Positions 5,101 to 62,600 of a stretch of DNA of 64,000 bases are shown in pieces. The position numbers and the translations under genes were made by a program. Positions within the stretch are counted from its first letter, which is position 1. Each line of letters opens with the position of its first letter. The stretch lies in contig NC_092572.1 in assembly GCF_037975245.1 (NCBI RefSeq), positions 1,525,501 to 1,589,500 on the forward strand, given 5' to 3'. Source of the stretch: Apostichopus japonicus. Its lineage: Eukaryota; Echinodermata; Holothuroidea; Aspidochirotida; Stichopodidae. The notes under the pieces are model-generated. The model was not told where the DNA came from. It saw nothing but the letters and a program-made list of their open reading frames with translations, and did no database searches.

Positions 5101-6076
5101 CCCTTAAGTCATATATAATAATAACATTTTTTTAATTAGCATGTAAAGAGCTAGCTATGTATAAGCACGCACAAATGTCGTAAATTGTTCCTTTATATCT
5201 TGCAAGGCATATATAATACGATATGCTATATTTTCTGTATTTTGTTTACATATGTTCAAGACTGACTAATTACAAAGTAACTACAATCCAAGAGAGATTC
5301 ATTATCTACTGATATGAGGTCATTCACGTGACCAGCTCAACTCAAATTGCGGCAATTGTGCAATAATGCATAGCTCAAATCTCTAATTTCATAATGTCGA
5401 TTCCATCTCCTAGGAAAGTAAGGAAGGATACTATCAAGAAAAAGGTGGGTGCAAAAATAATACAAATCAAAATGTTCAGAAATTTTAAAAACGAGACGTT
5501 TATAAATTGCCTCTGTGAACATAATACGATGTCGGTTCACCTACAAATCGTTAGCTATCATTTTATTGTTTCAAGTTTTCATGATAATAGGAAGCATAAA
5601 TCCATTAAACTTATATTACGAAATGGCCGTATAGGCGTTAAAAAGTTAATGTACAAAACAAACGTCTTGTTTCATACCTACTTCTTCTACCATGGTCGTC
5701 ATGGACGACATATGTCACGTTTGTTCCTATAAATTTCTCTATATTATATAGGCATATGCCAAAACAATGCTTCATACTAGAAATAAAATAAATCTAGCAA
5801 CTGATTTCATTTAATAAACATATCCTTTCTAGTCATTTATAAACTCGACCACCATGCAAAATTATTTAGACCATAATCTGAAATATAGCTTTGCCTATAT
5901 CAAGCTACATTTAAACAAGAAGTTTGAGAGAATATACATGTGACTAATATAGAGTAAAACTTACTCAATTTGTTGACTGCAGAGTCGGCAGTTTTAGGCA
6001 CAGAGGGAGTATTGGTGCAAGGATCCTTCTTTTTTTCGCTGTATGGTGCTAGAGCTTTTGTCACACCCGAAGACAT
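2154..6076 (-). pseudogene. N-A: membrane-anchored NACHT NTPase, frameshifted
   Basis: Exons on the minus strand: 6076-5965 (MSSGVTKAL start, 37 codons), 4190-4086 (transmembrane), 3783-2689 (NACHT), 2299-2154 (LRR-like, 48 codons). Phases join 1-1-0 with consensus splice sites. The TM exon has a hydrophobic run starting IAVIAVFF, then R and W-rich residues, which predicts the NACHT region inside the cell. NACHT signs are Walker A GERAIGKS, Walker B IVMLDGI and the LRGF motif. Two defects are visible. A one-base indel in the T-run at 3687-3692 breaks the reading frame between the conserved ITLH segment and VLFCGE. The third Walker A glycine of the paralogs is alanine. There is no signal peptide or Ig exon. 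The four-base TGAG at the last donor also supplies an in-frame stop, so the true 3' end is uncertain. The frameshift could be an assembly error, in which case the gene may be functional. Confidence 0.7.
4512..4600 (-). mobile_element. L2-type LINE 3' tail fragment
   Basis: Read on the minus strand, the block runs from GTAAAGCGCAC through GCGCTATATAAG to an ACATT short tandem tail. That ending resembles the 3' terminus of L2-like LINEs and matches the 3' end of the longer element at 56262-56885. It sits in the N-A intron between the 5' exon and the TM exon. Copy B has no counterpart at this position. Confidence 0.5.
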
Positions 6077-7815
6077 ATTTTGTTGTTTTGGGACAGTGTG
6101 TTAAAGTAACAAGTTAAGCTGCTAGCTTGGAAGTTTGAACTGTTTTGTTGAACTCGTCACAGGTATGGCCATATGTTAGCGCTATCACATGGTAAGACTG
6201 GAGTCAAAATTGAAATAGGCAAGAAAGAAACAACAGTCAGTTTTTGGTGTTTATAATTTCCAAAGATTTTCTAAGCAATCAACTTTAGCCACCAAAGTAT
6301 GCTTTTAACATTAAAAAAGCTATACCACGCAATTTCAATAACTTTGGTGCCTGCAAACATTTGTGAAATTTTACCCCGTTGAAATCCATTGAACATATGT
6401 TCTTTAAGCATTTTACGTAAAATAATGCAATATTAATATGTAGATTCTGGTATTCACCAAAGCTTGTGGGTCTTCACCATTTTGTCAGTTTGAGATTATA
6501 TTTGCATAATTGCTAAAGTGCGGTTTCCCTCTTTCGTGTTATCTTCAGACACGTTGACGTTTTGAGTCCGTCGACATTACGATAAGTATGTTGTTAGCGA
6601 AACAACTTTCCCCAAAATTTTCTCATGTCTGCTTTCATTAAGTGACCGTTTGACTTTTACATTTATTTAAAAGCTGTTAATTTGCTTAGTCAGATGTTTT
6701 GCATAGTTTGGAAGTAATCAGTAATCTGTCATATTAGTACTATGGTAATGACAAAGATTCTCTTTTCTTTTGTTAACATCTGCGCTTTGTTCTTTAAGGT
6801 CAATTGCCATTGCATTCTATTCCCCGGAATATTCCCCCAAATGTTAAGCCTGTTGGCCCAACTGTTAAATAATACAGCCCTTCGCAGTAAAGGTTCTTTG
6901 CACAAACGAAGTTTGATATTGACTTCTTTACATCATGTGGCTTTTAATATTTTTTATATCTTTTTTTTTTACATTTTTTTTTTACATATGGTATGATACT
7001 CTATATGAATGTGAATGCTTCGACAATTTTGCCGTATTTTTCTATATACGTGGTATTTCTTCTTTACATATTAAGAAATGCACATGTTCTTGCTATTAAG
7101 AGAAACGTGTGTTTATAAAAACGTTTTTTGCTTGGACATTTAATTGGTTAATCTTTCATGAAACGCAACCACATATTCGATGTGCGGCGTAACGTCTTGA
7201 ACATTTTGAAGTTCAATCTGATCTCAGTTATAGTTTATCAGAAAAGAAAACCAAAAAATCTAAAAGAAAATAAAGGAAGCAGAACTTCATCATACTCATA
7301 ATCGTTGTCGTTACCGTTATCACTTTATTGATCGTCGCACTCGTCCTCAAAATAACCAAAACCATTACAGTCACTACCATTACTACCGTTAAATCGACAC
7401 CCAGCAGACTTCTGATTGATTTATCCAGTGTTAATTCCTCATCCAATATAATTTGTATTGTAAAGATATTAACAAAATATACTCAGAAAAATACATGTCT
7501 ATCACATCTGAAGATCATTCTAACCTTCAGCTATTGCTTTATTGTGTTGAAGGAGGAATAAGCGGTGTTTTCCTTGACTTTTTTATATCAACATCTTGAT
7601 CACACATTAAAAATGCAAAAATATGAGTTATTAAAGTTTTCGAACATGTACACAAAATATCTGACCTATTTCTGCTCCACTCGATAGTATATTAAAGGTC
7701 CACAACAGACGATCGTCATTTTGACGTTTCTGATTAGTGTTTTTTATGTAACCGTTCTTACTATTTCGAAAATTTGATATTTTGTCGATATAGTATCACT
7801 GGTTCATTAGCCTAG
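6077..7815. other. Divergent intergenic spacer of copy A, no gene seen
   Basis: Spacer between the N-A 5' exon and the LTR-like insertion upstream of K-A. Short reading frames here are low-complexity (T-rich runs near 6955-6990) and lack splice-consistent partners. Parts near 7530-7700 align with copy B around 56890-57030, which supports non-coding shared ancestry. Promoters for the divergent genes probably lie here, but no specific element could be assigned. Confidence 0.5.
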
Positions 7816-9146: not shown

Positions 9147-9816
9147 CGTCACTGAATGAAAATATTACTAATCTGATTTCACTTTTACATCATTACATGA
9201 GAATATTTTTCGATAATCTCTTACGTCGGATACAGTGTTTGTATTACCAAGAACATAATGACCCAATTTAGGGTAATAATATTGTCTTCACTCAGCCTGT
9301 CGCTGATTATCTGCGGTAAGTAAGAACATACAAATATTTCAATAAATATGTAATAGTATCATATAATTCAATACTAAGTTACGGTACGTTTCATTTTGCA
9401 GATGGACAAGAAAACACAACTGAAATGTGTGAAGAAATATATGGTTTTCAGAAAACTTTATGTAAGGTCTCGCCTTGGGGTCCTGTCTGCATTGTTTGAG
9501 TTGTTTATCAGGAACCTGACGTGACATTAGTTCATTGCTGAGACTCGAATTGCTTACGGAGACATGAATATGGGGAAACGTAACAGAGTAAGCGAAAATT
9601 ACTGCCATGAGACGAATGCTTCGTTAAGTGTGGAACCTTTTGACGCTGAGAATGAATCCTCTGTTCTATGTCAACAGTCATATGTAAATAGACGGTGAGT
9701 AAATTTTACACTTTTACGTAAGCGACTATGAATTAACAGAATTGTCAATATTAATATATTGAGAGTCAATAAAAGTATACAGCTAGCTTATTTTTGCATC
9801 ATTGTTTCCTGTGCAG

Positions 9817-17667: not shown

Positions 17668-20600
17668 ATGGACATCATGACCCGATTAAGAGCAATATTA
17701 TTTTCTTTACTCAACCTGTGGCTGATTATCTGCGGTAAGTTAGTGCATTAACATCTGGTAAAAGAATAAATAATGTTATAACAGAATCTAATACCAAGTT
17801 ACGGCACGTTTCATTTTACAGAAGGACACGAACAAACAACTGGAATTTGTGAAGAAATAGATGATATTCAGCCTTTTCTGACAACACTATGTAGTGTCCT
17901 GCCTGGGGATCCTGTCTGCCTTGTGTGCCCTGTTTATCAGGATAATGACGTAGAATGGATCACTGCTGATACTAGAATTGCTTATGGAGACATGAACTTG
18001 GGGAAACGTAAAAGTGTTTACGTAAATATCTGTCATGAGACGAATGCTTCGTTAAGTTTGAAACCTTGTGAAGGTGAGAATGAATCCTTTGTTCGATGTC
18101 AACAGAGCGAGAAAGTGTTGGCCAAATTTACACTCATATGTAAAATAGACGGTGAGTAGATTGTATTGCTTCTATTAGATATAAATTTGTCATATTTAAT
18201 TACAATATGAATTGGAAAATTACCCCTCAAAAGATGCAAAATGTGTGTTTTTTCAATAATATATATATATATAATTTAAAGTGTACGTTTAGCTTGTTTT
18301 CCCCTTTCCCTGCAAACAAAGTTAAAAGTGCAGGAGATCAGCCTGCTTAATTCATCTCCAATTCAAAATGAAATTTAATGCTAAAAAAACATAAAAATCT
18401 TCATAAAAAAGCGATATTCAACTCGGCATAAAATGTTTACTTTTATTTGTCTTGCTCTGCACTCAAATGTATTGATCAGAAAATTCATTTCAATAACAAA
18501 ACTACTTCGATTACCTTTTATAAAAACACACAATATATTTTAATAAGTATATATTCATCTGGCGCTGAGAGTGACACTCAATTTGTAATGGCAGTGGTAG
18601 AAAATATTAATATGAGCAATACTTTACGTTTACTTGTTGGTGTAAGTCTTCAATAGATGTTGCCACCGGTATCAATAACCATACCGATAACAGGGGTTAA
18701 ATCCCTTTGGTATTTTGAAACATATTTTAATGAAAGAATGTAAAGCAAGCATATATCACTGGTCTGACTATTCAATTAGGGAAAATTCAGAATGTAGACC
18801 CAAGTTATTTTAGGAAATATGTTATCTCAATTTTATCTTTAATGACAGATGTAGTGCCTGTGACAACTGGTAAACAAAGTTGTTTTTTTCCTTTCAAGTT
18901 TGTCTAAATAGTCATGCAAGTAATTTTAGGAAATATGTTTATCTATATTTTATCTTTAATGACAGATGCAGTGCTTGTGACAACTGGTAAACACAATTGT
19001 TTATTTCCTTTCAAGTTTGTCTAACTAGTCATACAATTCCAAGCTCAGCAAGGAAGTAAACTTAAAAAAAAATCTGATTCTATCATTTCTGCGAAAGCTC
19101 TTGATCCAGTTCTAACTATGAATTGATAAATTTTAGTAAAGTGACTTCATTCAGTTTCGTACTTAATTTCCCTTTATTGTTAACAGAAGGTCAATGTTAA
19201 ATTGTTTCCTTTGTAACGAGAAAAATAAAAATGAGCTAATCAAAACCGGTAATTGAAACATAAGTTCATGATATATTTATTACGGTATGGCAGACGATAG
19301 CTGGTACATACAGACGCAGAGCCAATAGGACATATTTTACAGCCATTAGCGAAACGGTCACTTGGTTATATGCACGAACGCTTTATTTCCTTGTCCACAG
19401 ATACTCTACATACAACACGGAAATCAGAAGGGCGAGAATCACGCCAATTAGAAAACACATGGATTATAGTAGCTGGTGCATTCGTGTTGATTTTCAATTG
19501 TCTGCTAGTCTGTGTTTGCATCACAGTCAGGAAATATAGATGTATGTAAAAGTGTTGTACATACCTTTGATATTTAAAGTTGAGGAACATAACTATTAAA
19601 GTAATATGTATTAAATAGACTTATGATGCCAAATAATATCGTACTGTGTTAAATGCGAAATAAAAATAATATTGTACGAATTGAAGCAGTTTCTAGGGGT
19701 AGCTATGTATTAGTCAACATTGATTGGACATTTTGTTCATACTTTCGTTAGGCATTATCTTTTCATCGATACCCTTAACAAATGTCATTAAAGGTGATCG
19801 TATGTTACAGCAGGGTATATTGATTGATTATAAGCAACACACTGTCAATCGTTACATTATAATGGCCTCTTAATAACTTGATACTAATAGATTAAGGATG
19901 CATGTAATGAACAGGTTTCTTAATTTTATTCCAAAATAAAATACCTAAAGAAAATGAGCTCTCAATAAACGTATCTTGGTATAGATATATGATTGGTTGA
20001 TAAACATGTTGACGAAAAAGTAATAGTAACCAAAATAAGTCATTTATTCTGCGTTAATTTACTTATTTTAGGTGGGTTAACCTCAGCTACTCTTTCCTTC
20101 TCTGTCCGTTTACAGTTCCAGTAACAAGAAACCGGCAAGGATGAGTATTATTGAAAATAAAAATAATATTGCGAAAATGCCCCCCCCCCCACTATCCCCT
20201 ACTTATACTCTTGAAATGATGTTTTAAATGTGTTTATGTTTGCTATGGAAAGCAGTCAAATTACCATTGACGTTGATAGTGCAATGAAACAGTTATACTT
20301 ACCTTTAATTAATTAATAATTGTTTTCCATTTGGTTTAGAAATCGAAATATCAACTCACGTCATCAAATGAACGTACTCGATAAAGACGCCCTAGATGCC
20401 GATCAATCAAGTAAGATGTATTTTCATGTCAACTAAGTTTCAGAATTTGAGATACGGAATACGGGATACCTATAATGATAATGTTATGGGCGAAGTGATT
20501 TTTAGTACGATTATATGCAAAAAATAGGACAAAAATATGGTATAACTTTCAAACAATAAATACTGGTGCACTTCAAAGTAAAGACACCAAAATAAATTCC

Positions 20601-31041: not shown

Positions 31042-34000
31042 TCATTTATTTTGAAGGAATTTAACTGATATTAACACAAGGAGAGGCCAATTGGTCGATA
31101 AGTTGCAAAAATAATTAAACTCAACCAGCTGTGGTATATTGAAACATTCCACGATGAGCTTGGTATTGCAGCGTACGTTTTCTAAGCCGAAAAGAGTTAC
31201 AGTTAGATGCGCTGACTTAAAGCCAATTGCAATGACAAACCAGGGGATACCCACATGTAACAATGGCCGCTTCCCAGCTTTAAACACTAATCAGTGTATC
31301 TTGAAACCATAAGACAGACATTTTGGTAAACAACATTAATGAAATAATTAGAAGATGAATTGGCACGGTAAGCATTAATATGTATTTGCAAATACAAAAC
31401 AATACTATGTGAGAATCACAGGAGATGTGAATGTTACAAAAAGGTGTTAAAAACCAAACGTACGACTTATTATAATTGAAATTAAAACTGAGAAACACAA
31501 TGTCATATATATGACTACAGCGATGACATCGCGCACAAGGCTGATCCTAATGTCATTTTTTTGTTTATGAAATAAATCAATTCATCAGTGCATAATAAAT
31601 GTAGATTCACGTGTATTCCGACTGCAAATAAGAAAACTAAATTGAGACAGGGCTCAGAGCTGACATTTCGATTAATATAAAAGGCTTCATGAAAGCATTG
31701 TATTTCTTATTAAAGAAGGTTTATTAATTTAATTTTTCTTCTTTTCCTTTTCGGTGCTGAGTTTTTTTTTTCTCTTGACACTGAGAAATATCAGTCAGCA
31801 TGTTGGTTTCATAAATATTGTTATTAAACTTTTGCAAGTTGTATACTACGCGTTGTTCTCTTGTTCTCTTGTCCACTTCTCCCACTCTCCATTTTTGCAT
31901 AAACGCTCATAAGGGGCATCTTCAGTCTTGCGAAAAACTGCCAATTGAAAAGAACATTTTTAGTTTTAATACGTCATTACAACTATTTGAAACCAAAGCA
32001 TTTACATGTATTTCTTTATTTATATTTTCTTCTCCTTTGATATAGGTGTTCAATGGATTATAAGACAAAAGTATAAAAAGAGCTGATATTTAGTTAAAGC
32101 AAATATTGCTATACATCTTCGTAAACATGTCTTTATATTGATCGATTGATGAACCATGGCAGCATATATTTTCTTGATGTAGTTAATTTTTCAAGGTCAT
32201 CCAATCATCTCAGTGTTTAAAAATGAAAACGCTTGCTTGCTTAGAGCCTCAAATTTTACGTTCTTCGAAATAACTTTACCATCCTAACTCAGTTTGATTA
32301 GCTACTCGAAACATGTTGTTTTGTTTATGTTATTGAATATCTACCTTCAATCTTCTCAATATCAACAATATCCTGTAGTTCATCTTGTGAAAGTCTTTCT
32401 GGGGTTTTGCTCTCATAAAACCTTGCGCAAACGAAGAGTAGAACAAATATAAACAGTATTAATCTTTTGCAGAGGTTGACTTCTCAAAGTATGTGTGTTA
32501 CTTTTTATTGGTTGATTATAAGAAGTCTCTGAAACGACAAACTGTTCATTCCAAGTAGAACACATAGTAGATTTTTATACGAATGGTAGCCTTAACATTT
32601 TCAAAAGTAATCTCAATCAATTCGGAGGAAATATAAAATCGTTAACAATTCTCTTATATGAAGTTCTATGCCGTCAATTTTAGAGTTCAACATGTCTAGG
32701 GCTTAAAGGTGAAGGCTATTAAACAATAATTCTAACCTTAATTTCTTAATTGATTTTTCGGGGGATATAAATTTAAAAAAAGGAAGACATTTAAACAGTA
32801 GTGTTCCGTGTATTATGGCCTATGTGAATAATGATTACATAATCTTTAAGGCAAATAGCAGTAACATATTAGCTATATCAGCTATTAAACAATGTAAATT
32901 TGTGTAATTATTTTCATTATTAGCGGACACAACAAGATAGGACATTGGTCTATATTTTATCAGTTTATTATATATGACAGCTTTATAACTGACAACTTGG
33001 CCTGTTAAAAAAATACTTAACGTGAACGTTATTTACGCTAGACAATACTTAATATTTAATATAAAACTCATGAGAAGAAAGTAAACAAATTCAAAAGTCA
33101 CTCACTTTATTTTCTTCGTCATTTGTGGAACCTTTTCCATGACAGCTTTGAATTTATCTTTGTTTGCTAAATGGACCCCGTGAAAGACAAGCCAATCGTC
33201 GATGTTTGGTAAACCGCTCAATTGAACAATTGGGAAGTCCCCATGTATCTCCAAAGATTTAAACGTGGTCTGTCGGCCAAAAGTATAAATATCAGTGTAT
33301 ATTTATTTGTTTCGGCAAAACGCTTTTGTATCATCGACAGTTTTTCCGCCGTTTCATCTGCGGGGGATTTGCTTTGATGCACACTATTGACAGTGGGTGT
33401 GACTCAAGTAGAATGCTATACTAATGGTAAACCAAGCGAAATTTCTGACGATACTGCAGGGAGACTCGATTGCTTGTCGTGCTTGATGATTGAACTTCTA
33501 CAGTAAATCAAGACACCAAATTCCGACAGATATGTAAAAAAACGTATAATCAACATTGGGGCCGGCCATCGACTCAAAGCGTAAAGTCATAGAGAGAAGG
33601 AACTCAAGAAGCTGTTCATTTACTGCAATGTTAAATATATAAAAGTAAGACGGCTTGATGTTGGGACGCTGTCAAAATCTTCCTCAGGCGGCCACGACGC
33701 AACAACTAAGGATACATTTAAGCTAGATGATGAACAGACCAATGAACATGTAATCGAACAAATTATATAGGTTTATAATTGAAAACAAAACAGAAGATAA
33801 CATTTTCAGATGGATATAAATTTAGTTAATGCGGAGAATTGGGACTAATAATGTAGGGAGTATAATTATTACGGACGATTTACCCAAATCAATACAGTAT
33901 GAAGACAACTTACATTATCTAATAGAAAAGCAAGATTGCATGAGAAGCAATAATGCTAATCGGATAATTTAAAGCAGTTTGCACATCGATGCTTTTGGTT

Positions 34001-37000
34001 TACAAGGAAACAATAATTTTGATTTACTAATTTAGATAATACAATGGTTATCATACCATCTATACCTTCTAGGTTAAAATTTCTAACTGAAAATCTGACT
34101 GTGTTTGGTACTAGAGGATATATAGTAGTAGCTAAGTCCTTACCTCTGCCTCCTTGCACTTCTTCAACAAGTGCAGTATTGCGTCTTGGTAATACTCTTC
34201 TGTGCTATGATGGAACACCAATTTCTTCATTTGTAACATTTTAGCATATTCTTTGTATTTTTCATCATCTTGCGTTCCTACTTCCAGTAAACATGCTAAT
34301 ATATCAAAGTTACCATTTTCTACAAGTTTTTCGATAGTCTGAAGCTTTTCTGCAAAGAACATGAACAAATCTTGTTCCAGCATTGTACTGTTTGTATCTA
34401 ATTGAATCGAAGCAAACAAGCGAGCAATTAATGGAGATTGTGTAATAAAATCTTTACAATGATAAACAGTTTCCATCTGAAATTGCCAATTTTCCAGAAT
34501 ATCTTCAGCAAGTTTGTAATTCAAGGGTCTGGCCTCGGGATTAAGTGTTTGATCTTTCGATTCCTGCTGCTTTTCCTTTAACATTCTGTACTCTTCCATG
34601 TTTTCCTCAAGTTTTTTATCTTCATTTTCTTGCCAAATTTTTTCAAAAAATGCAGTTCTTTGGATTTCGTTAAATCCTATAACGTCTATTCTTGTGTAAG
34701 GTTTGCTCATAACGTTCAAGTCCTTGTCAATGTTACAAGAGGTTACCCATAATTTCATATTTCTAAAGTTACCGATATAACCCTTCAAGATATGCTCCAC
34801 AGTTAGTCTCTTCTTACTGACTACATTCGATATATTATTATCATCATTATGAAGTCTTGACCAATTGCTAATACCATCTAACATTACAATGCTGTCTTTC
34901 CTTTCTAATTCCAAAATTAAACTATTCGCTTCATCAACAGACTTTTCTCGGTTCAACATTTTCATGAGTTCATCCAATATGCAAGCGTCTTTGGAAAGAT
35001 ATTGTAGCTGAAGGTAGATCAGAATAACATCTTTCATAATTTCCCCATTCTTCCACTTTCTGGATATGTCACGAAACAAATGAGATTTGCCAATACCAGG
35101 CTCGCCGACAAACAATACCCGGTTACCCTGGTCGCGCTTGGATAATACAGTAATCAGTTCATCGGCTTTATTCACATTTGATATGTCGTTGTCTGTGTAT
35201 GTTATCGTGTACTGACAGTCACCACACCAGCTGTCACTGAATGAGACTTGTTTTAATTCTTCCAACATATTAGTCTGCTTTACTTCTTCCAACAAAGTTC
35301 CTAACGAAAGAATATCAGAATAACAAACATTCATTTAAATGGCATTGTTATGTACTTCCACCCAAAAGTCTCCATCAAACTCAGAGAGACTACGTATCAT
35401 TCATCCTTTCAATATGTTATATTAAAAAATGAGGCCATTTAAGATCTTTTCAATTCATTCCACTGGTTAATATTTACCCTCCCCCCCAAAAAAAAAAAAA
35501 AACACAAAACAAAACAAAACAAAACAGAGCAAACAAACGATGCCATGAAAGCTTATTATTTTATGTGAAAGTCGCATTCAGGTACAACAGGCATTTTGAA
35601 AGAACATGAACTATTTGATTGAAGCCCTTTTACAATTTAATTAAACGTTCAGTTGTACCTTCTAAAATAACGATATATTCTGGCAAGGGCATCTCCCAAA
35701 AATTCAAGAGGCGACAAGCGCAATTCCATTTTCAGTAACCAATTTACTGTCCGAACATAAACTAGTTAACCGGTTAACCGTCCACATTGACACAGTGTGT
35801 TGTCGTGGGCATGGGTAAGGAATGTACTACGAAGGGCAGCAATATAATTTAGCCTATCAAGCAGATTCCATGTTTCTTATCTATATTTGGTACCTGCAGC
35901 CGCCAGGATATGGCTCCCTCGGGCTTTCTTCCTTAGGACAGATTTTTAAATTTCCATTAAGGTGAGTCTTAAGAGAGCATATGGCTTCATTTTTCTTTTG
36001 TTTTTGTGAAGGCCGGTTTTACTGGACGAATGATTTTGCGTAACCTGTTACCAGGTCCCAGGCCGCCGTACCGGTAGCATTGGCTCAGTTACGTTGCTCT
36101 CTGGTGGTCATTCTTAAGATTTTAGGTAGTACAGTAACATATCTGGCCATGTAATCAATTACAATCCGATAGGAAGGTTGTTTTTGCAAATTCGGCCGAC
36201 GGAGCTACTTGTAACTTGACAGGGTATACCAAAAGCGTATGGGGCAGATCGATTCTGAGACAGACATGCAGTTACTTAGAATGGCATTTGAGATTTGGTA
36301 ATTTGTTATACAATATCACCTGTATACGTGAAGCAAGTTTTTCCTATTGTGTACACTGTTTTTAGCTGGGAGCACAAGGGGTGCGGCGATGCGCCCAGAA
36401 CTTGGAGCATTTCCAGATAGTTTTTGTCCTATGCTGAAAATTGCTCAGTACATAAATATATGTCCGAAAGTTAAATTACTCTTTCACACTGTGAAATCAC
36501 TAGACAGTCATGGCTCATACTGTAAGTACTGTTCAAGTCCTGTAACACATGTAACGCATGTCACGAACACAAACCAATAATAACTGATGCACGATTGTGG
36601 ATCATTAAGAGTAGTTACTGTAGGCCTAACAACCACTGAGTGCGAGTTCTATAATACGCGATTCTAAAATGAGTTGTATCTAGTCGTTTTATGCCATAAG
36701 GAGGCCTACAGATATACCCAAACATGGCCTTTCATTCTCGGCTTGACAAATTGGCGTAATTTAAAGAGAGGATTGAACTGGAATCAAGCTGTACGGTACC
36801 TCCTCTACTTCAAACACATGGCTAATTCAGTAACTACTGGTGCCATCTGTAACACATGTTCCTACTGTTCATGTCCTACAACCGTGCATCAGTAATTACA
36901 ACTCTGTGTTCGTAACACGGTAACACGTGCTATATGTGGCACCAGCATTTTACTGTACTAGCTATGAGTATCGGCTAGTGGTAAGTATTTCATACCCCGT

Positions 37001-40000
37001 ATGGTGATATCGGAGGGGTGTGGGCAGAGCCCCATTGTTTATGGGAGTTAGCTGTCAGTCGTAGCAAGCGTAATTCTCGAATGTCGAAGTGAATGTCGGA
37101 GAGAGTAATTACAATTCTCCGGAATGTACTTTAAGGAAGGTGAGGGATCTGGTCACAACATTTTGATATTTTGACTTTGAAGTTGCTCCATTTTCTTTGA
37201 TTAAGACTCAGTAAAGTTAATACAGTTCACTAAATATATTTGATAACCCCTCTGTGGTCCAGAAGCTAACTTCCTGGTAGCTGTAGCACTTTGGTGTAAT
37301 TATTTCTGTAGCATCTCCTTTTCCACTAATAAAACATATAAGAGTGTTCCTTCGGTAGGTTTAAAGTCCATACAACTATGTCATATGCAGATCGTAAGGA
37401 GTTGAACATTGTTAAATATTGTTTCAAAAATTACAAAACATGGTAGTTTTACATGCAATTACCGTTCGTATAAGCGAGATTTCTCACAAGGGAGATAAAA
37501 TACACAGTTGGTAGAATCTCTTCTAGAAGGAAGAAATTATCACAAAACATTTTACACCCTCCCACTCCCGTAACAACGATAGTAGTTTCGCCCATGGTTT
37601 ATATACGTTATTATATTTAAATGGGCAAGTTACACCCACATGACATTTTGAAGAGAGTAGTTAAAAATGGAATTGCTAGATTATCACAGTTGGCTACACT
37701 TAAAACACACATAGTGGGTTGAATTGTTAAGTTGTTCAAATATGAGATCATGAAATCAAAAAGTACTAAACCTGATTTTCAGGATGTGTTCTAAAAGGTA
37801 TTCCGTTGTCTATGTGACATATTATATACTTATTTTGAATTTTGGAACATGCTCTGCGCTTAAATCGGTGTATAAGATTTACTTAGGAAGCAGATGTGAA
37901 AACTCTCCGTCTTCTAATAACGACTAAATAACTTTAACTAATGAACATACTTTACCCAATACATTACCTTGCCGTCCACCGTGCCGTCGATGTAGCTTAT
38001 AATAAAATATAGCTAAAGCAAAAAGAGTTATCCCCAAGACAGCCAAAACACACGTAACAATTACTTGCGTTGGAGAGCTCGTCTGTTTCGTGTTGTCGTC
38101 ATTGCATTCTTCTGAAAAGACATTAAGTTCACTAATTTGTTGATGTAAATATAGTCAAAAATAGTCAATTAACTTCGAAGTTAATTGACTATTTTTTGTG
38201 ATACCATAGCTCTACGTTTTCCAATAAACCTCCACGGTTTCTTATCTAATCAGGTAGAATAATCAACACATCACTTGTACAATCTTATACTACATATATA
38301 TTTCTTCCTACATTATATATGAATTATGACAATGGGAAAAAACAGGTCGATGTAATTTATTCGTGTTGCGTCTTCTGCTATATACAATTGGGCTTTGATA
38401 ACATTATGTAGCTGCAAATAAAGAGATAGTGTTTATCACTAAAGAACAAATAATAGTCATTTTTGTTCTAACTGTAATTAACTTACCTTATCTTATTTCA
38501 TAGTTTACATCTTGAATGTCATTTGAAAATCAGTTATATTACATGTAAAAAATCATTTTTAACTGAGCACAATGGATGCTCAGCGTTTGAAAGACTTACC
38601 TGATCGAATGTTAACTGTCTTATTTCCTATTGTCAGTATCTCTCGATCGTAATAAACAGAGCAGCGAAATATAGCATCTTCAGCACATTTCAATTCGAAG
38701 AGAATAGTAGTAGAAATATTCCAGGCATCCGTTATGTTATTCTTGATCTCAAATGATGTCTTCTCGGTGAATGTAGTATTATGTCCTTCGACACTCCAAT
38801 ACAAAGTAACATTCGGGCGTACCTGTTCTATGTAACAAGTTAAACTAGTAGGATCGTTGGATTTAACTCCTACGATGCATTCATCGCAGTTAGAACAAGA
38901 CTGGACGAGAGGACACGGAGGTGTCGGCGTGACTTCAAGAGAATAAAAGTATATACACCTGGATTAATATAGGTTGCAAAATTGCATTTTAGTTTAAATT
39001 AATTGTAACAATAACTGTGAACTTAGGACCATTGAATGATAGTGCATATCATTTTAACTGAAGATATTTTTCCCAAATTGCATCCGATGTTCCCTTTAAA
39101 TGTATAAATGTAGTGAAGTTGGACAATCTGTGTGATGTAAAGTGCTACAAATTTGTCTACACACATAAAATCTCAACAAAACAATCACAAATTATTGAAC
39201 AGAATAGCTGATCACACATATTTGTAACTCTGAACATAATGACGGAATATTTTAAGATCTGAACAATGCATATTTCAAGACTGAATCTTAAAAAAGAAAA
39301 AGAAAAGAAAAAGACAGGAAAGTAGAATGGCAATGCAAATACCAAGCATCATAATTGGTAGACTTCTCACCTATTATCAAGACTGAAATAGACCGTCTCC
39401 ACACGGTTCCGTTTTCAAAGATTACAGCATATGTGTAAGAGGCCTCGTGATCCAGCCTAGCATTGATAATTTTCATATTACCTTCAGAAGTAATGTCATA
39501 ATGGTCATCATCATACTTTTCTCCACCCTTTACACCATTCTCTAATTTAAGTATTGGTTTGGTCAGTGATATCGATCCCTGGTACCAATAATATCCCTCG
39601 ACGTTACCGCCAACGTCACAGTATATGGTGTTGGTTTCCATTCTTTCGACATATTGATTTGAAAGACATGTTTGGCAAAAACCTGCAAAAAAGTAAAACA
39701 ACAACAACAAATTCGAAAGTATTGTTGAAATCTGTACGTGAAAATCTATCACATTTTCCAATATTTTTGTAAACATAGATTTTGTCTTCCTTTTTCGAGG
39801 ACTTTTTCATGGAAGCGTTTGCTACAGTCCTCGATAAAACTAACTTCTTAAGGGGAGTGAGTACCGTCACTTAAGGCTTGCTAATATGTGATAAGTCCGC
39901 AATAATGAAACATTACAAAAGTAATTTTGATATTTTGAAGACCATTCAAAAGCAGCGCTAAAGGTTCATGATTTATTTATAGAATTACGGCAATGTGTTT

Positions 40001-40702
40001 TAAATTACTCTTTTTTCACCCGAAGTTTATCAATTAAATAACTAGCATATAATTAGTCTACCATGTTGGTTCAGCTCCTCACATGAAACAGAAAGCTCAA
40101 CAGCTATAATTGTGACTTAATGAACTGAAATAAAACGTTTAAAATGTCCTAACATTTTTCCAATGGATATGGTATTGAAAGTCATTGAAGATATCAGAAC
40201 ATATTTTATTGGTTAGTTAGAATCTGCAAGCCACTGATTCATTAGAGTTATTATTACTGATCAACCAATGAATCAATAGTACTGACTGTACCGAGGAGCC
40301 AGCGTCATTATCACTTTAACCTCGAATGATCGTTGCAGAGACTGAGCATACTTTACAGGTGAACGTCTTGAAAACCAGAATGACAATGAAGAAAAATCAC
40401 TATCTATCATACATTTCATTTTCTTAAATTATAACATATATCACATACAATTATGATATGACTTTCCTTCATAAACTAATTGCCAGACACTTTTTCTGTG
40501 GATTTTTCTGATGTATGTAATTGCTCTATAAAGAGTAGATATACTTCAACAGTCCGTAGCTACTTCATCCCAGCACCACAGAATCCCATGAATGTGTTTC
40601 TCCTTCAATGCACTGTTTTTGTATTCTTTTTAACAGTATTATAAGTACGTTACCTTCCACCACGAGGATGGATAACATGTAAAAAGACGAAAACATTATC
40701 AT
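31042..40702 (-). CDS. N2: Ig-Ig-TM-NACHT receptor
   Basis: Eight exons on the minus strand: 40702-40654, 39682-39371, 38932-38600, 38111-37968, 35300-34144, 33269-33106, 32421-32345, 31286-31042. All phases close, giving 826 residues. Order: signal peptide (MIMFSSFYMLSILVV); V-type Ig-like domain 17-120 with CDV, YYWYQ and a D-E-A-Y pattern; second Ig-like domain 121-231 with LTC, YWS and FRC; TM about 248-269; NACHT region with Walker A GEPGIGKS (345-352), Walker B IVMLDGI (417-423) and VIGF (about 488); then leucine-rich-looking segments (SLEIHGDF; TLFGLENV). STAND NTPases of this type usually oligomerise when triggered, so N2 could link extracellular recognition to a cytosolic NACHT switch. 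The first six exons are well supported by motifs. The last two rest on phase and splice signals. The LRR-like exon donor also contains an in-frame TGA, so a shorter end is possible. Confidence 0.8.
36564..36912. repeat. Imperfect inverted repeat in N2 intron
   Basis: Arms at 36564-36598 and 36878-36912 share CGAACACA and ACTGATGCACG in inverse orientation, roughly 28 of 35 positions. The enclosed DNA is GC-richer than the flanks and has non-coding open frames. It could be a small degenerate non-autonomous DNA element. No target duplication was identified. Confidence 0.4.
38157..38196. repeat. Perfect 40-bp palindrome
   Basis: Two 20-bp arms with no spacer, centred on TTCGAA between 38176 and 38177; the left arm begins AAAAATAGTCAATTAACTTC. 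It lies in the N2 intron, 45 bp before the acceptor of the transmembrane exon. On the minus-strand transcript it would fold into a strong hairpin close to that 3' splice site. Confidence 0.95.
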
Positions 40703-43023: not shown

Positions 43024-45149
43024 TTTACACCTTCAAACGGTCAACTGTTTCATATATCGGCCAGTGTTACACGACATCGTGAAATTTAATGTCATCAATG
43101 ATATTCACATTCAATAAATACGAGCAGAATTAAGGAAAGTCGCCTAGTAACCATCAATAAAACTAACCCAATGATCTATGTTGGCTTGAAGGTGTTTAGT
43201 AGTAATATACATGTGCAAGTTATCCCATGCTGGAAACACTTACACTTTACCATATTTGTTTTCCCTCCAAACTAACAATATCAATTTGGGTTGGATAAGA
43301 CCCATTTAATGCACATGGTTAACTCATACAGAAAAAAAAGACTTGGTACATCGATATGATACATGCGCTACCGCAATTTTCATCTCCAACGACTCAATTG
43401 GTAAATGGTTTGATTGCGGTGAAATTCACATTATATTGATATATAACATTTGGTAAGGTTCCCTTTACTAACTCTGACACGGTTTGTATAACAAGAAAGG
43501 AATATCGACGCAAGTTATTCACATTATTCAGTGTCATAGTCTAAACACACAGGGAAAACAAAATGCCACTCATTTGTAAGCTCTCTTTGTCCTGTTATTC
43601 TCATTCTTTCAGTTAAAGAAAATGTGCATCTACTCTGTTCTACTAAGGTGAACTGTTGAAGGCCCAATGGCTTAACCAGAGATTATCAAGATGATATGCA
43701 AACGAAAATTCTGAATAAACTGATCCTTCACTTGTGTAGCACTCGTTTTGCCAATGCTAATTTTACGATATGCAAAAAAAAAAACGTTATATATTGGAGG
43801 AAGGGAGACATATGTACATGAACGTTTAGTTCCAACAACTTTAAAGCGTATGTTTGTCACTGTTAAAAAACACATAATTTTGTGTTAAGTATTTAAAATT
43901 GACAAAGGCAGAATTCACATTATATTTAAACTTACAATAGGTGGTAATGATCAACATTGAGACCCCACATTAGAATAATGCAAACGAATGATCAAAAATG
44001 AAAGAGTATATTGGACAATGGCGGCATGTTGGTGATATCAACAATATGAAAAACGCAGATCGCAAAAGAGATCGACTACTCAGCATTGCTGCTTAATCAC
44101 AGAACAGTTTATATATAATAATAGTCACACAAACCATTGTGATATTATAAGCAATTTGTGATAGTTTCAAGATCGATTAATGATAGACCATATTCAAATG
44201 ACTAACCTTGAACTTGTCGTTTGTGTTTGCTGCTGATGAGTAACCGAGAGCTTATACAGCTTTGCATGGAAGATATTCTATGTACACTACATCGACGAAT
44301 TAACTCGTGTTACCATCTATAGGGTTTTACAAAACGTGGACTTTGGAATAACGATTATAGACAGAGCTTGTTGCAAGGTAATTCTTTGTGATACAAATGC
44401 CAGTGCGACACACTTGCATCATTTGTTGTCGTGTACATGTAATGATGGGACAATTTCTTTCGTCATGCAAAGCATTCATCATGACTATTTGAACAATACG
44501 AATATTATTCTTTCAACATAAACCAAGGGCAGTATAATTTCTTTAAAGCTTTACTTGGGAGGACAGTATAGAGTGGTCGTTGCCAGGAGTGGAGCAGGGG
44601 GAGCGACTGCTCCCCTTTCAGTGTCGAAAAAAATGTTAAAAACTGTAGTTTTTGTCAGCTCCGTTAACTCAAATATAATCGTAGGAACATTCAGGCCTAC
44701 TGATTCAGTTACCAAGTTTAGCCGATGTGATTAACTACATTTAGCCTATATCCTATTACAAGCCTTCAGTTGGCCACTGCGTAATAAAATACATACAGCC
44801 TACCTTAACACAAACCGTATGCACGACGACGACAACGTGCGTTCTCGTCTTTTCTATGACTTGTCATAAGTTGTTGCACGAACAAAATGTTATTAAACTA
44901 AGCTAGCAATCTTACGTGATACGCGCTTCCTATAAATTCTTATTACACTGCTAAATATAAACGTTTATTTTGTCTATCAGTTAAGTTCGTCAAATGTATT
45001 AAAGTCCAGACATTTTACAATAAACAATAGTCATCCTACTGGAAAAATTGTTAAGAGCACTATCGCTGTCTTTCTGATGTAAGATGTAAAAGATCGAACC
45101 GGAAACAAAATCTGCCGATAATATGATAGCATATGATCATGATGAAACT

Positions 45150-52200: not shown

Positions 52201-55200
52201 TCTATTTTATTAGTATTTGCAATTGTTATGCAATCTGGATCCTCTGAGAACTGAGCGTTGTAAAAGACCACTTGATTCTCCACTTTTGGTAAATAGTTGA
52301 GCAGACGGATCGGGTTAGCATTATATACCTCCACAGAGTAAGGCTTTACCTATTTGTATGAAATAATATATAAATATATTAAATTCCTATATTAACATCA
52401 GCTATGAAATAAAATAACGAGTTATAGTATTCAAACTTTTAATATTTTAAACAACGCAGAGTATATAACCATCATTTACAGTTCATGACTTTTCTTCAGG
52501 GACAAACTTAACTTCATAATTACAAACTTAAATTTGTAGACTTTGCTGCAACAATACTTTTTTGTTGAACCAGGCGAATAAGAAATGCCACGGTTCTGTG
52601 TAAAATACTGTATGCTTAACGCGTCAATATAAACTAATGTCTAACATTACAATTCACAAAATTGTTTCATATGAGTTATATCGCAAAGAAATCCATATAA
52701 GTAAACGGCTAGATCAATGTAGAAATAGAAACCACTTACGTCTGTTTCATTGAGAGTCTTTAATAGATGCAGTATTGCTTCTTCATAGTAATCACTCCTG
52801 CTTTGTCTGAACACCAGCTTCTTCATTTGTAACATTCGAGCATATTTCTTGTATTCGTCTACGGTTTTTGTTCCTACTTTTAGTAAACATGCTAACATAT
52901 CAAAGTTTTTAGATTCGATAAGAAATGTGATGGTTTCAGACTTATGCGCACTGAAATTTAACAAATGTTCTACTAGCGGATCTCCATCACGTCCTTTAAT
53001 AGTTAGGTAGCGTGACGTTATTAACCGAGTAATTAATGGTGACCTAGTTAAGTAATTGTCTTCCCTTATTTCCAATGCATCTGCCATACTTGGTGTGTGA
53101 GTTTTCCATGGCAGTTTCCCTACAGAGCTGGGTATTTTCCACCCTTTTCCAGACATACCTTTTCGTAAAAATTCGTCTCTTTGTTTATTTGTAAAGCCTG
53201 CCAGTTCTACTTTAGTGTATAGTCCTTGGAAAAGTTCCTGGTTATGTTCAATATTATCGGATGTAACCCAGATTCTCATATTTTTGAAATGTTCTGGATT
53301 TCCTTTCAAAAGGTTTTCTACTGTCAGAGTATCTGTATTTCTTTTGTCAATATTCCAAGGAGTGGTAAGTCTTGACCAATCGTTAATTCCATCTAACATC
53401 ACAATGCTTTTTTTTTCTTTAAATGCTGAACTTAGTTTCTGGTACGCTTGCTGAGATATTTCATATTTCAAAAGTTTAAACGTTTCCTCTAATATATTGG
53501 CGCCTTTAGGAACATAAGGAAGCTGAAGGTATATCAGCATAAAATCTTTGAGAATTTCTCCTTTCATCCACCTCCTTGCTATGTTTCGGAAAAATTGTGA
53601 TTTGCCAATACCACGTTCTCCACAAAAAAGCACGCGTTTATCATTGCCGTTTAGGAATAAGGCATCAAGAAGTTCATCCTCTTTGGTCACCGTCTTATAT
53701 CTTTTTCCATTTTTCATATTTAACGTTATCTTGTAAGTGCTGTCACTAGACCGGGTTCCTCTAAAGGGTATGTAGCTCTGCTTCAAAGTTTCCATCAACG
53801 TATCTATATCGGAATCGAACAATATCATATACATTTATAAATTTACATTAAATAACTTTATTTTATTATAGCACAAGTATGATGCCGATGAAGACTTACG
53901 GCATTTGTTATAAGACCCATTTAGCACATCTCAACAACAGGAAGAAAAAGAAAAGAAAGATTAGTTAACGTATGAACCTTATAACTACTAAGTAGAAGTC
54001 ACAGTTAACTTGTCTTATATATGGTTTAGAAATTCTGCAGCTGTAACATAAGCTAATATTAAGCCAACGTATGTGTATTTGGTGAAACCCAAAAAATCAT
54101 AGCATACAAAAATGTTAACAGCTACCTTGTTTAAGACACCTCAGCAATAGTACCAGTAAAAGCAAACCACCCACTATCATGACGAATACCAGAGTCATCC
54201 AGGCCGTGATGATGTCTTCGTTAGCAGGATTGTCTGATAAACAAGATAGAACGTCATTATTATTTTATTTTATGATCCATCCATCCGTCCGTCCGTCCGT
54301 CCGTCCGTCCGTCCGTCCGTCCGTCCGTCCGTCCGTCCGTCCGTCCGTCCGTCCGTCCGTCCGTCCGTCCGTCCGTCCGTCCGTCCGTCCGTCCGTCCGT
54401 CCGTCCGTCCGTCCGTCCGTCCGTCCGTCCGTCCGTCCGTCCGTCCGTCCGTCCGTCCGTCCGTCCGTCCGTCCGTCCGTCCGTCCGTCCGTCCGTCCGT
54501 CCGTCCGTCCGTCCGTCCGTCCGTCCGTCCGTCCGTCCGTCCGTCCGTCCTTCTACTCGTCTTTTAATGTGTCATGTTGTATTCTTTCGTCTCAGTGGTA
54601 TTTAAAAATTACGTAAAATTAAAATGCGAGATATGAATCGTTCTCAAAGGTCATACACGTCTTTGAATTGTAAGAATTGCCCTCAACTGTAGCATTTTAG
54701 CAGGGTGGCTTACGTGGTTAATGTGTTCCTGTGTCACTTGTGAACACGTGTGTTTGACTATATCTCATCCTTTATTACATGTATCTTTCAATCTAGTTTT
54801 TTTATCAAGTTTAATGTAGAACTTTGCTTACTATTTACAGCATTTGTTTCGATAATTGAGTTTCTAATTGAAGTAACTACAGTAAGTAACTAACATCAGT
54901 AAATTAAAATAGGGCACTTCTAAGCAAATGCATCTTTCAAAACACTAATAACTTGGTCCCTCAATCCATATTAAAGACTAGCACAGTTTTGAATAGCATG
55001 TTAAGAGCTTTCTATGTTTAAGCACGAACAATGGTCACAACGTGCTCATTTATGTCCTGTAAAGGCAATCATAAAACCATATGTTTAAATTTTCTGCATT
55101 TTGTTTACATGTTCAAAACTGACTAATCGCAAATGATCTCACTGATGATTCCATATCTCGTGAATTTAAGACTAATATCAAGAGAAATAAGTGGATGCAA

Positions 55201-55637: not shown

Positions 55638-56261
55638 TTTCTAAACAACACTTTTTAACACAAACGAAGTGTCAGTATAATAATTCCTTTCTTGCGTTTT
55701 ATCCCAGGTGTCTTAAGGTGTCTTGCTGTATGTTGTTCGAGTTATTGTCACACTCGAAGACAATTTTGGTGTTGGGGACACTGTGTTGACGTAAAAATTT
55801 AAGCTGCTAGTTTGGGAACTTTGAAGTGTTACGTTGAACTCGTCACAGGTGTGGCCATATGTTAACGCAATCACATGGTAAGGTTGGAGTCACTATTGAA
55901 AAAAAAAGGCAAGAAAGAAACAACAGTCATCGCTTGGCGTTGATAATTGCCAAACATTTTCTTAGGCAATCAGCTTTGGCAACCGAAGTATCATTTTAAC
56001 ATCAAAAACAAATTAAGCTAAGCAGCTAAACGTTTTGAAGTCCGGTTTAAGTGAATAAATGCAATATTAACTTGTTGTTAATGGTATTTAACAAAGCTGG
56101 TAGGTCTGCGCCATCTCGTCATTTTGGTATGTTCGTAATGGCCAAATTGCGGTGAATTAGTCAGTGAAAGTTCCACCTTCGATATAATTGTATTGTAAAA
56201 TAATAACAAAAGCTATTCCGCAAAACACGTGTCTGCCTCACCTGAACATACATACATGAAC

Positions 56262-59661: not shown

Positions 59662-62600
59662 ATGCATATCATGAACCAATTAAGAGCAATATTATTTTCT
59701 TTACTCAGCCTGTCGCTGATAATCAGCGGTAAGTATGTTAGTACATTAAAATGTGTTAATGAATGTCTAAAAGTATAACAGCACCCAATACTAAATTACC
59801 ACACGTTACACTTCGCAGATGGACAAGAACAAACAACTGAAATTTGTGAAGAAATTGATGATATTCAGCCATTTCCCACCACCGTATGTAATACGTTGAA
59901 TTGGGATCCTGTTCTTGTCTGCCTTGTTTGCCCGGTTGGTCAAAATATCGACGTGGAATGGATCATTGCTGAGACTCGAATTGCTTATGGAGGCATGAAT
60001 TTGGGGAACCGTAATGGAGTAAGCGTAGATAGCTGCCATGAGACGAATGCTTCTTTGAGTGTGAAACCTTGTGACGATAAGAATAAATCATTTATTCGAT
60101 GTCTACAGGGAGAGGAAGTGTTGGCCAAATTTACATTCATATGTAAAGTAGACGGTGAGTAAACTGTATTGGTTATGTAAGCGACAAGGAATTTATCATA
60201 TATAATTACAAGATGAATTAGAAATTACCCCTCAAATATGTGTCTATTTAATTTAAAGTGTACATTTAGCTCGTTTTTGCAGACAAAATTGAAAGTCCAA
60301 GAGATCAGCCTGGTGAACTCATCTTCAATTAAAAATTAAAAGAGATTTTCGTAATGATTATATAACGACATATCTTAATAATTATGATACATCTGTGTTT
60401 CAAGCGAAAATTTAACTTCAGTGGCAATGGAAGGAAACGTTAAGTTTCATTTTTCTCTCTTTGCAGACAAAGCTATAAATCAGAGCAATCCACATGGTAA
60501 ATTCATTTTCAATAAACTAATTCGATTCCCTTTAATAAGTATACATACTGTATTTTATTAAGTATGTGTACATCGTATGTGGCGGGCGGCTATGGAAGGA
60601 AACATTAACTGTCATTTTTTTCTCTCTGCAGACAAAGATATAAATCAGAGCAATCCACATGGTAAATTTATTTTCAATAAACTAATTTGATTCCGTTTGG
60701 TAATTATGCATAATGTATTTTATTAAGTATGTGTACATCGTGTGCTGGACGCGAAAATATTTGTTTTGCCACTTGTTTATTTCCCTGCAGACAAAGATAA
60801 TAATCAGGAAAATCAACATGGTAAATTCATTTGCGATACAAATTTAAATTAAAATTTCTTATATAACAATTCACAATGCATTTTAACAAGTATGGCTTCA
60901 TCGTGTGCTTGAAGCGACAAGCAGATTTTACTGGCAATGGTAGAAAACATAACTTACGATAACAAAATAGCTTACGATATATCTTTTTGTGTGTATACTT
61001 GTGGCAATAAGTCATTTTAATATAGTGTAAAAAGAAATATGGTTAACCGTGCATCAAGGCGTTGGTTTAAGTCTTCGCAAATCTTCAACAGGGGTTGAAC
61101 CCAGTCTCTCTAACCTGTTCTTGTTTAATGTTACATAATTCTTAATATATTCCAATGAGACGATCAATATTTAACTGATTTTGATACAAAAAAATGTCAA
61201 CAATTCTTGAGAAACGATATTTTCTCTCTTTCTCATAATGACAGATACATTGCCTCCAACAACAAGTAAGCTTCGTTCATAATGCCGCTAACCGCTGATG
61301 TGATGATAGTTTTAATCAAAATGATATATATCTAATATCATTTTTGGATTATTTTGAGTACATGTTTAGAGCACCAAGTGTACTTATTTTTACGTGGAAA
61401 AGGGAAGAAATGAAGTAAACATATTCGCTTCTGAATCAATAATCTCATATGATGTAGATCCTCATTAAGTGATATTTGTTTTTCATACCGTTAATTTATT
61501 TTTGTTTTAACTATTTGCTGTATACAGATAGTCATCCCAATTTCAAATTAACCATGTACATCACCGTTGGAGTAACACTTTCTCTGGCTGTAGGCTGTAC
61601 TCTTGCAATCTCGGTACATTGCTCCCTGCGAAAACGTAAGTTTGATCTAAACCAAAAGTTTAAACTCACCCAAACGGTTCCTGCGGTATACCGAATATTG
61701 AATATTGAATGAAACTGGGCTGTTGTCCCTGGTAACAAGGTACTCATGCTACTGGATTATTTCTGCCCTCCAACGCAAAAGGGAGGCTGTATAGTCATCA
61801 ATACGGCACTACATAATGGTGATATGGCTCAATCATTAGACCGCACAAATTGTAAACCTAAAACACTAGTTCGAAACCCACCATGCTGACGCTTTTCTTG
61901 ACTTTTGACATTGTTTAGGGTATTCCTCTCAGTTTTCTATTGTTCACTTATAAAACAAATATCAACAGCTTTCAGTAAAATTTAAATACAATTTTCCTCT
62001 ATAATAACATATTTGCATTGATTATACCGTCGTAAGTTCCAGAAGCTTGTCTTCTTCCATCATTTTTCATCTAACGAATAAATCAACTTGTATTTCTATG
62101 GAATGCAGGATAAATGGCATAAATCAACATAGCCTATGAACATATATACTTTCTTCCAACATATAATGATAACAGAACCTAATAAAATTCATGCCACAAG
62201 CAGAAGCCCTGGCTGTCCCATGATGTGTTTTATTCCAAAAGTTATGATCATTTGCTGGTATTTGACAATCTTTACCATTAAACACATCAACTGGTTTAAT
62301 GTGGAAAGACTCGGTGTGAATGCATAAAACAAAACACTTGATTCTGACTCAAGACTAGTAACTGGACAGGGTAAGCATGTGGTCAATAGTTCCACTCATA
62401 TTAAAGGAATAAAGAGGGGGCTACATTGTGGCCATTGGATTGTCCTCTTTTTCTTATTTGCATTAGCAACTACCTCGTTAAGCCCGTCATAACAATTTTG
62501 AGAAAACTACCCTTTCCTCCCACATTGGTATGCACAAGTTAACATGTTGTTTTTTTAATATTTATCTTGTTTGCATTAATTATCAAATTTTTAATCAATG

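Follow-up and report, generated by a model that had tools for sequence, protein, structure and literature searches.

A candidate Ig-TM-NACHT membrane receptor with an altered Walker B motif in a tandem array of the sea cucumber Apostichopus japonicus

A 64,000-nucleotide stretch of the genome of the sea cucumber Apostichopus japonicus (RefSeq assembly GCF_037975245.1, contig NC_092572.1, positions 1,525,501 to 1,589,500; hereafter the window, in which all positions below are counted) carries on its minus strand a gene whose predicted product joins a signal peptide, two immunoglobulin (Ig)-like domains, a transmembrane (TM) helix and a NACHT module in one chain. On the reading that we favour, with moderate confidence, its product is a type I membrane receptor of the AjNLRC4 kind, in which the Ig pair senses microbes, clustering drives phagocytosis and the NACHT hydrolyses poorly. 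NOD-like receptors (NLRs) are taught as cytosolic sensors, and an NLR switch carried by a surface receptor would tie recognition outside the cell directly to NLR-type assembly. An initial sequence-only reading of the locus had taken this combination to be unusual, but it was already described in A. japonicus in 2021 (PMC8699970), and the window gene is a distinct, uncharacterised paralogue of that published Ig-TM-NACHT design. Sea cucumbers appear to hold many genes of this design. The general point has been published before; the contribution of the locus is a compact subfamily in which Walker B is altered, together with a visible loss of Ig exons within one tandem array, and this opens to test the question of whether NACHT acts as an ATPase switch in these receptors at all.

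Spliced together from 40702 to 31846, eight exons give a single open frame of 775 residues. Each of the seven introns starts with a GT donor and ends with an AG acceptor, and each of the four junctions between exons 1 and 5 is in phase 1. A homologue search found P0001, an A. japonicus protein of 803 residues that NCBI names an uncharacterized protein, and the translation is identical to it from residue 29 to residue 803; NCBI thus annotates the same Ig-TM-NACHT chain. P0001 begins with a 5' exon for its residues 1-20 at 44208-44267 (minus strand, as are all exons described here; 20/20 residues identical in a tblastn of P0001 against the window), and in the NCBI form the signal-peptide exon starts about 24 bases upstream of 40702. 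In our model this exon (40654-40702) reads from MIMFSS with a hydrophobic N-terminus, has a GT donor, ends in phase 1 and is identical to P0001 from residue 29. The sequence-only reading had placed the start and the Ig, TM and NACHT parts correctly, as the GT-AG borders, phase-1 junctions and identity to P0001 show, and its single phase-consistent frame from signal peptide to NACHT is the frame of P0001. Its 3' end at 31042 and its length of 826 residues need revision: the protein ends at 31846 and has 775 residues (803 with the upstream exon).

The first Ig-like domain, which is V-set-like, occupies the exon at 39371-39682 and is identified by Pfam scan, splice borders, alignment to relatives and a PDB profile match; the second occupies the exon at 38600-38932, with clean splice borders and a C1-set match (E 0.00068) slightly under the cutoff. 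Ig2 has both Cys residues and the Trp, and Ig1 has the first Cys and the Trp, with a Tyr at the position expected for the second Cys. Against the PDB, the family profile picked up Fab light chains (best E 2.5e-4), and of six family proteins scanned two pass the V-set cutoff of 26, P0004 (26.4) and P0009 (38.5). The next exon (37968-38111) encodes a stalk and the TM helix between Ig and NACHT, with splice borders in place, a hydropathy of 2.86 at P0001 residues 276-294 and basic residues on the predicted cytosolic side. The structure model (mean pLDDT, the predicted local distance difference test score, 55.8; superpositions with a root-mean-square deviation above 15 were left unused) has a helix at 282-300, with low confidence there.

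The NACHT module is encoded by the exon at 34144-35300. A profile search of this stretch bore out its earlier assignment, matching PF05729 at 1.2e-10 and 41.9 bits (cutoff 26.7; 39.9 bits with the whole protein), and the module agrees with NLR NACHT domains in sequence and fold. Walker A (GEPGIGKS) is present at P0001 residue 373, and the Walker B region, LDGISNW, reads DGISNW, not DGxDE. The C-terminal tail is spread over exons at 33106-33269 (open frame, with a strand and helix pattern in the structure model), 32345-32421 and 31846-31937, the last with the stop codon; both of these are open and match P0001. After residue 695 the model alternates strands and helices; the whole protein has no Pfam match to leucine-rich repeats (LRRs), the region after 695 not having been searched alone.

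AjNLRC4 (MN607598) is reported as an Ig-TM-NACHT receptor on the coelomocyte membrane, described there without CARD and LRR. Its Ig domains are reported to bind microbes and polysaccharides and to mediate dimerisation, the receptor is internalised, and its NACHT is reported to interact with actin in Arp2/3-dependent phagocytosis of Vibrio splendidus (PMC8699970). The window protein comes from the same species and shares the N-terminal signal peptide, extracellular Ig domains, TM helix and intracellular NACHT of such receptors. It differs in that it has a single Ig pair, places its TM at 276-294 and its Walker A at 373, and carries a changed Walker B, whereas AjNLRC4 is reported with its TM at 483-503 and its NACHT at 600-757 (PMC8699970), which fits the long, two-Ig-pair family described below. 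The possibility that the window gene is AjNLRC4 itself is rejected on these published coordinates together with the two of six AjNLRC4 primers that were tested (quantitative PCR forward and NACHT-fragment forward), neither of which matches the window with up to three mismatches.

By analogy with AjNLRC4, the window receptor may sense and take up microbes: its Ig pair would face the body fluid and bind microbial surface sugars or cells, binding would cluster the receptors, clustering would gather NACHT modules under the membrane, and the gathered modules may recruit the actin machinery, leading to phagocytosis. Because the Walker B acidic residues are lost in the short subfamily, we predict that the NACHT binds nucleotide and hydrolyses it poorly, in which case ligand-driven clustering, not an ATPase cycle, would set the state of the receptor. 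The sequence-only reading had further proposed a link to inflammasome-like assembly. Its Ig surface receptor with a NACHT of its own is supported, the module matching NLR NACHTs by sequence and fold, but the inflammasome-like link is conjectural for the window gene: the 'inflammasome-like complex' of internalised AjNLRC4 and caspase-1, reported in 2025, is described as acting through the Ig domains and not through NACHT (PMC11932488), and the window protein combines the altered Walker B with no death-fold effector (CARD, PYD, DD or DED) among its Pfam matches to E 0.1.

In the homologue searches, scoring was confined to the 7994 and 7989 candidates with the most words in common. Profile and single searches returned a short family of 20 proteins, all from A. 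japonicus; none from elsewhere was found among the scored candidates, which is no proof of absence in other species. With the P0021 ectodomain as the seed, a search returned 32 proteins including the query, from Holothuria leucospilota, A. japonicus and further contigs, and 22 of them have a precomputed NACHT match. The short-family ectodomain profile matched 25/25 tested sequences of this set, and in most it matched twice, at about 25-230 and 300-445, marking a repeated Ig pair; as judged by these matches, the Ig ectodomains of the short and long families are homologous. In most long-family members the TM lies at around 470-505 and Walker A at around 594-630. Seven contigs of 4547-10221 bases encode Ig plus NACHT proteins of 1155-1803 residues; given that seven introns spread the window gene over some 9 kb, contigs this compact are probably transcripts.

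The Walker A pattern is matched in all 20 short-family proteins, and DGxDE is absent from every one of them: in 19 both later Walker B positions are non-acidic, and in P0018 one of them is acidic. The 32 other proteins comprise 21 that read DG[FYL]D[ED], ten without Walker A by pattern (P0039 alone among them carries a precomputed NACHT match) and one AIG1 protein, so that every long-family NACHT with a readable motif (21/21) keeps DGxDE. A literature search gave no paper on this Walker B change among the matches listed, judged by title. Within the short family, P0009 is 86-87% identical to P0004 and P0006 in the TM segment and 79-80% in the cytosolic part, but only 34-36% in Ig1 and 21-28% in Ig2, which points to an exchange of ectodomains. 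In P0010, an A. japonicus Ig-NACHT annotation, Ig2 runs directly into NACHT without a TM segment; this may reflect an annotation error or a variant that lacks the membrane helix.

Two further NACHT paralogues lie on the same strand in the window, with NACHT exons at 3783-2689 (copy 1) and 53803-52740 (copy 3), the gene described above being copy 2. The array displays the Ig-TM-NACHT plan, with the Ig part lost in two of three copies. In copy 1, the NACHT exon is 78% identical to P0015 and its frame is broken near 3690; a TM exon with phase-1 borders lies at 4086-4190, and a decayed Ig2-like stretch at 5960-6230 is weak (tblastn E 0.78 to Ig2) and has sequence and position in common with the copy 3 one. 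The annotated product of copy 3, P0018, has TM and NACHT but no Ig and includes both the NACHT exon (PF05729 34.8 bits, borders checked) and the TM exon (54126-54233, phase-1 borders); its decayed Ig2 exon, with a broken frame, is at 55640-55893 (tblastn E 0.002 to Ig2). The TM and NACHT exons are 302 bases apart in copy 1 and 322 in copy 3, with matching phases. Non-synonymous (dN) and synonymous (dS) divergence was estimated by the Nei-Gojobori method on NACHT codons, with exon borders respected: copies 2 and 3 gave dN 0.50 and dS 1.21, a ratio of 0.41 (347 codons), and copies 1 and 3 gave dN 0.36 and dS 0.45, a ratio of 0.79 (323 codons); across the array the ratios are 0.79, 0.41 and 0.40.

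Several observations weigh against the receptor reading. That the Ig, TM and NACHT exons share one transcript is a prediction from annotation, the exon structure of paralogues and relatives. Both Ig domains score under their Pfam cutoffs (C1-set 20.4 of 21, V-set 15.1 of 26), as they do in the whole protein (17.3 and 14.1), and the Ig exons of both neighbours are lost, being decayed with broken frames. An excess of N-glycosylation sites was considered as a sign of an outside location and rejected as not significant: the six ectodomain sequons were reached by 163 of 2000 shuffles. The AjNLRC4 ectodomain is longer and its domain coordinates differ, so the functional analogy reaches from one subfamily to another. 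Of the 25 P0021-set sequences, 20 of which are NACHT proteins, only 3 were matched by the short-family NACHT profile (E up to 10), and the cytosolic parts of the two families are far more diverged than the ectodomains.

The 2667-base intron between the TM and NACHT exons leaves room for two neighbouring genes joined by gene prediction only, one with Ig and TM that stops after 37968 and one with NACHT that begins within this 2.7 kb. An in-frame ATG stands directly upstream of the NACHT exon (35334), the copy 3 frame opens with an ATG too (53834), and annotated proteins include TM-NACHT forms without Ig (P0011, P0012) and NACHT forms without TM (P0013, P0014, P0016). However, the joined form recurs in a second annotation set as the 88% identical P0002 (BSL78_06493), and the alignment of P0001 and eight relatives covers most of their length, with gaps in part of Ig2 (P0006), a stretch before NACHT (P0007, P0008) and the N-terminus (P0008). 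The short, phase-matched TM-to-NACHT spacing of copies 1 and 3 and the presence of both parts in one protein on the compact contigs of relatives also speak for one gene; from the paralogue exon order and the relatives, we hold separate genes to be very improbable. Equally hard to credit is that the window gene has entered the same decay as its neighbours and yields no functional receptor. The Ig2 exons of copies 1 and 3 and the NACHT frame of copy 1 are indeed broken, but all eight exons of the window copy are open with intact borders, its close relative P0002 is intact as well, and the copy 2 to copy 3 ratio is as expected under constraint, against the higher one of copy 1.

The main rival, which we consider unlikely, keeps the receptor but not a working switch: the NACHT would serve as scaffold or decoy, pairing with long-family receptors whose catalysis is normal in order to dampen or tune them. 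The census of DGxDE, missing throughout the short family and kept in the readable long-family proteins, favours it, as does a Cys in P0001-P0003 at the Arg position that we take to be sensor-1. It also gains from the homologous Ig ectodomains of the two families, AjNLRC4 being reported to dimerise via Ig (PMC8699970). Short-long heterodimers are putative, however, and Walker A persists across the short family. Some working NLR-like proteins vary at the Walker B motif, which further counts against the loss of a switch. A microbe-sensing receptor with a poorly hydrolysing NACHT remains the reading we prefer.

A second published A. japonicus protein, AjNLR-new (PIK48001.1, 1197 aa), was reported in 2026 to combine Ig, TM and NACHT; it is longer than the window protein, and its published description gives it two TM segments and an inverted topology that puts NACHT outside (PMC13133943). 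In long-family proteins, for example P0027 (776-794) and P0041 (771-789), a hydrophobic helix (CQVPLFFVMFAH-like) lies within NACHT, close to the second TM predicted for AjNLRC4 at 776-795 (PMC8699970). This long-family helix may be a buried NACHT helix, which would make the second TM, and topologies built on it, questionable. NLRC4, NLRP3 and NOD2 resemble the window protein in NACHT sequence and fold, but are described as cytosolic LRR sensors, mostly with death-fold effectors (PMC8699970), and the signal peptide, Ig domains and TM helix set the window protein apart from them. The TM-NLRs of sea anemone and coral are probably membrane-anchored NLRs and in that respect similar; they differ in their 3-5 N-terminal TM helices, and the part of the source consulted mentions no Ig ectodomain (PMC5094078). 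NLRs with an Ig V-set domain in Chiridota heheva join Ig and NACHT in another holothuroid (PMC8913654).

Elsewhere in the window, a long tandem repeat with an 8-base period (about 54260-54590) lies directly upstream of the copy 3 TM exon. Three plus-strand stretches near the NACHT genes (17782-18156, 59779-60159 and 9371-9677) are mutually related; the first two are open and encode proteins 68% identical, and the third is split over two frames. The two open stretches were considered as extra Ig exons and rejected, with no Pfam match to E 0.1 and a best E of 0.054 against 52 collected proteins. Rfam, at its gathering threshold, gave no match within the window.

The same ectodomain family is also found on other cytosolic modules. 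In P0021, P0023 and P0024 (from Holothuria leucospilota and one contig), Ig and TM continue into a histidyl-tRNA-synthetase core, which in P0023 matches PF13393 at 108.9 bits. Since the joining is seen both in genome annotation and on a 4082-base contig, it may be a real receptor fusion, not a prediction error; no paper on it was found in a literature search, judged by title. P0034, on a 5295-base contig, joins the ectodomain to an AIG1-type GTPase (150.3 bits). We tentatively raise the possibility, short of a probable one, of a modular system in which one Ig-pair ectodomain family and a TM are combined with swappable modules (active NACHT, Walker-B-altered NACHT, the GTPase of P0034 or the synthetase-like core of P0021, P0023 and P0024), ectodomains are also exchanged between paralogues, as in P0009, and the short receptors would be non-hydrolysing tuners of the active ones.
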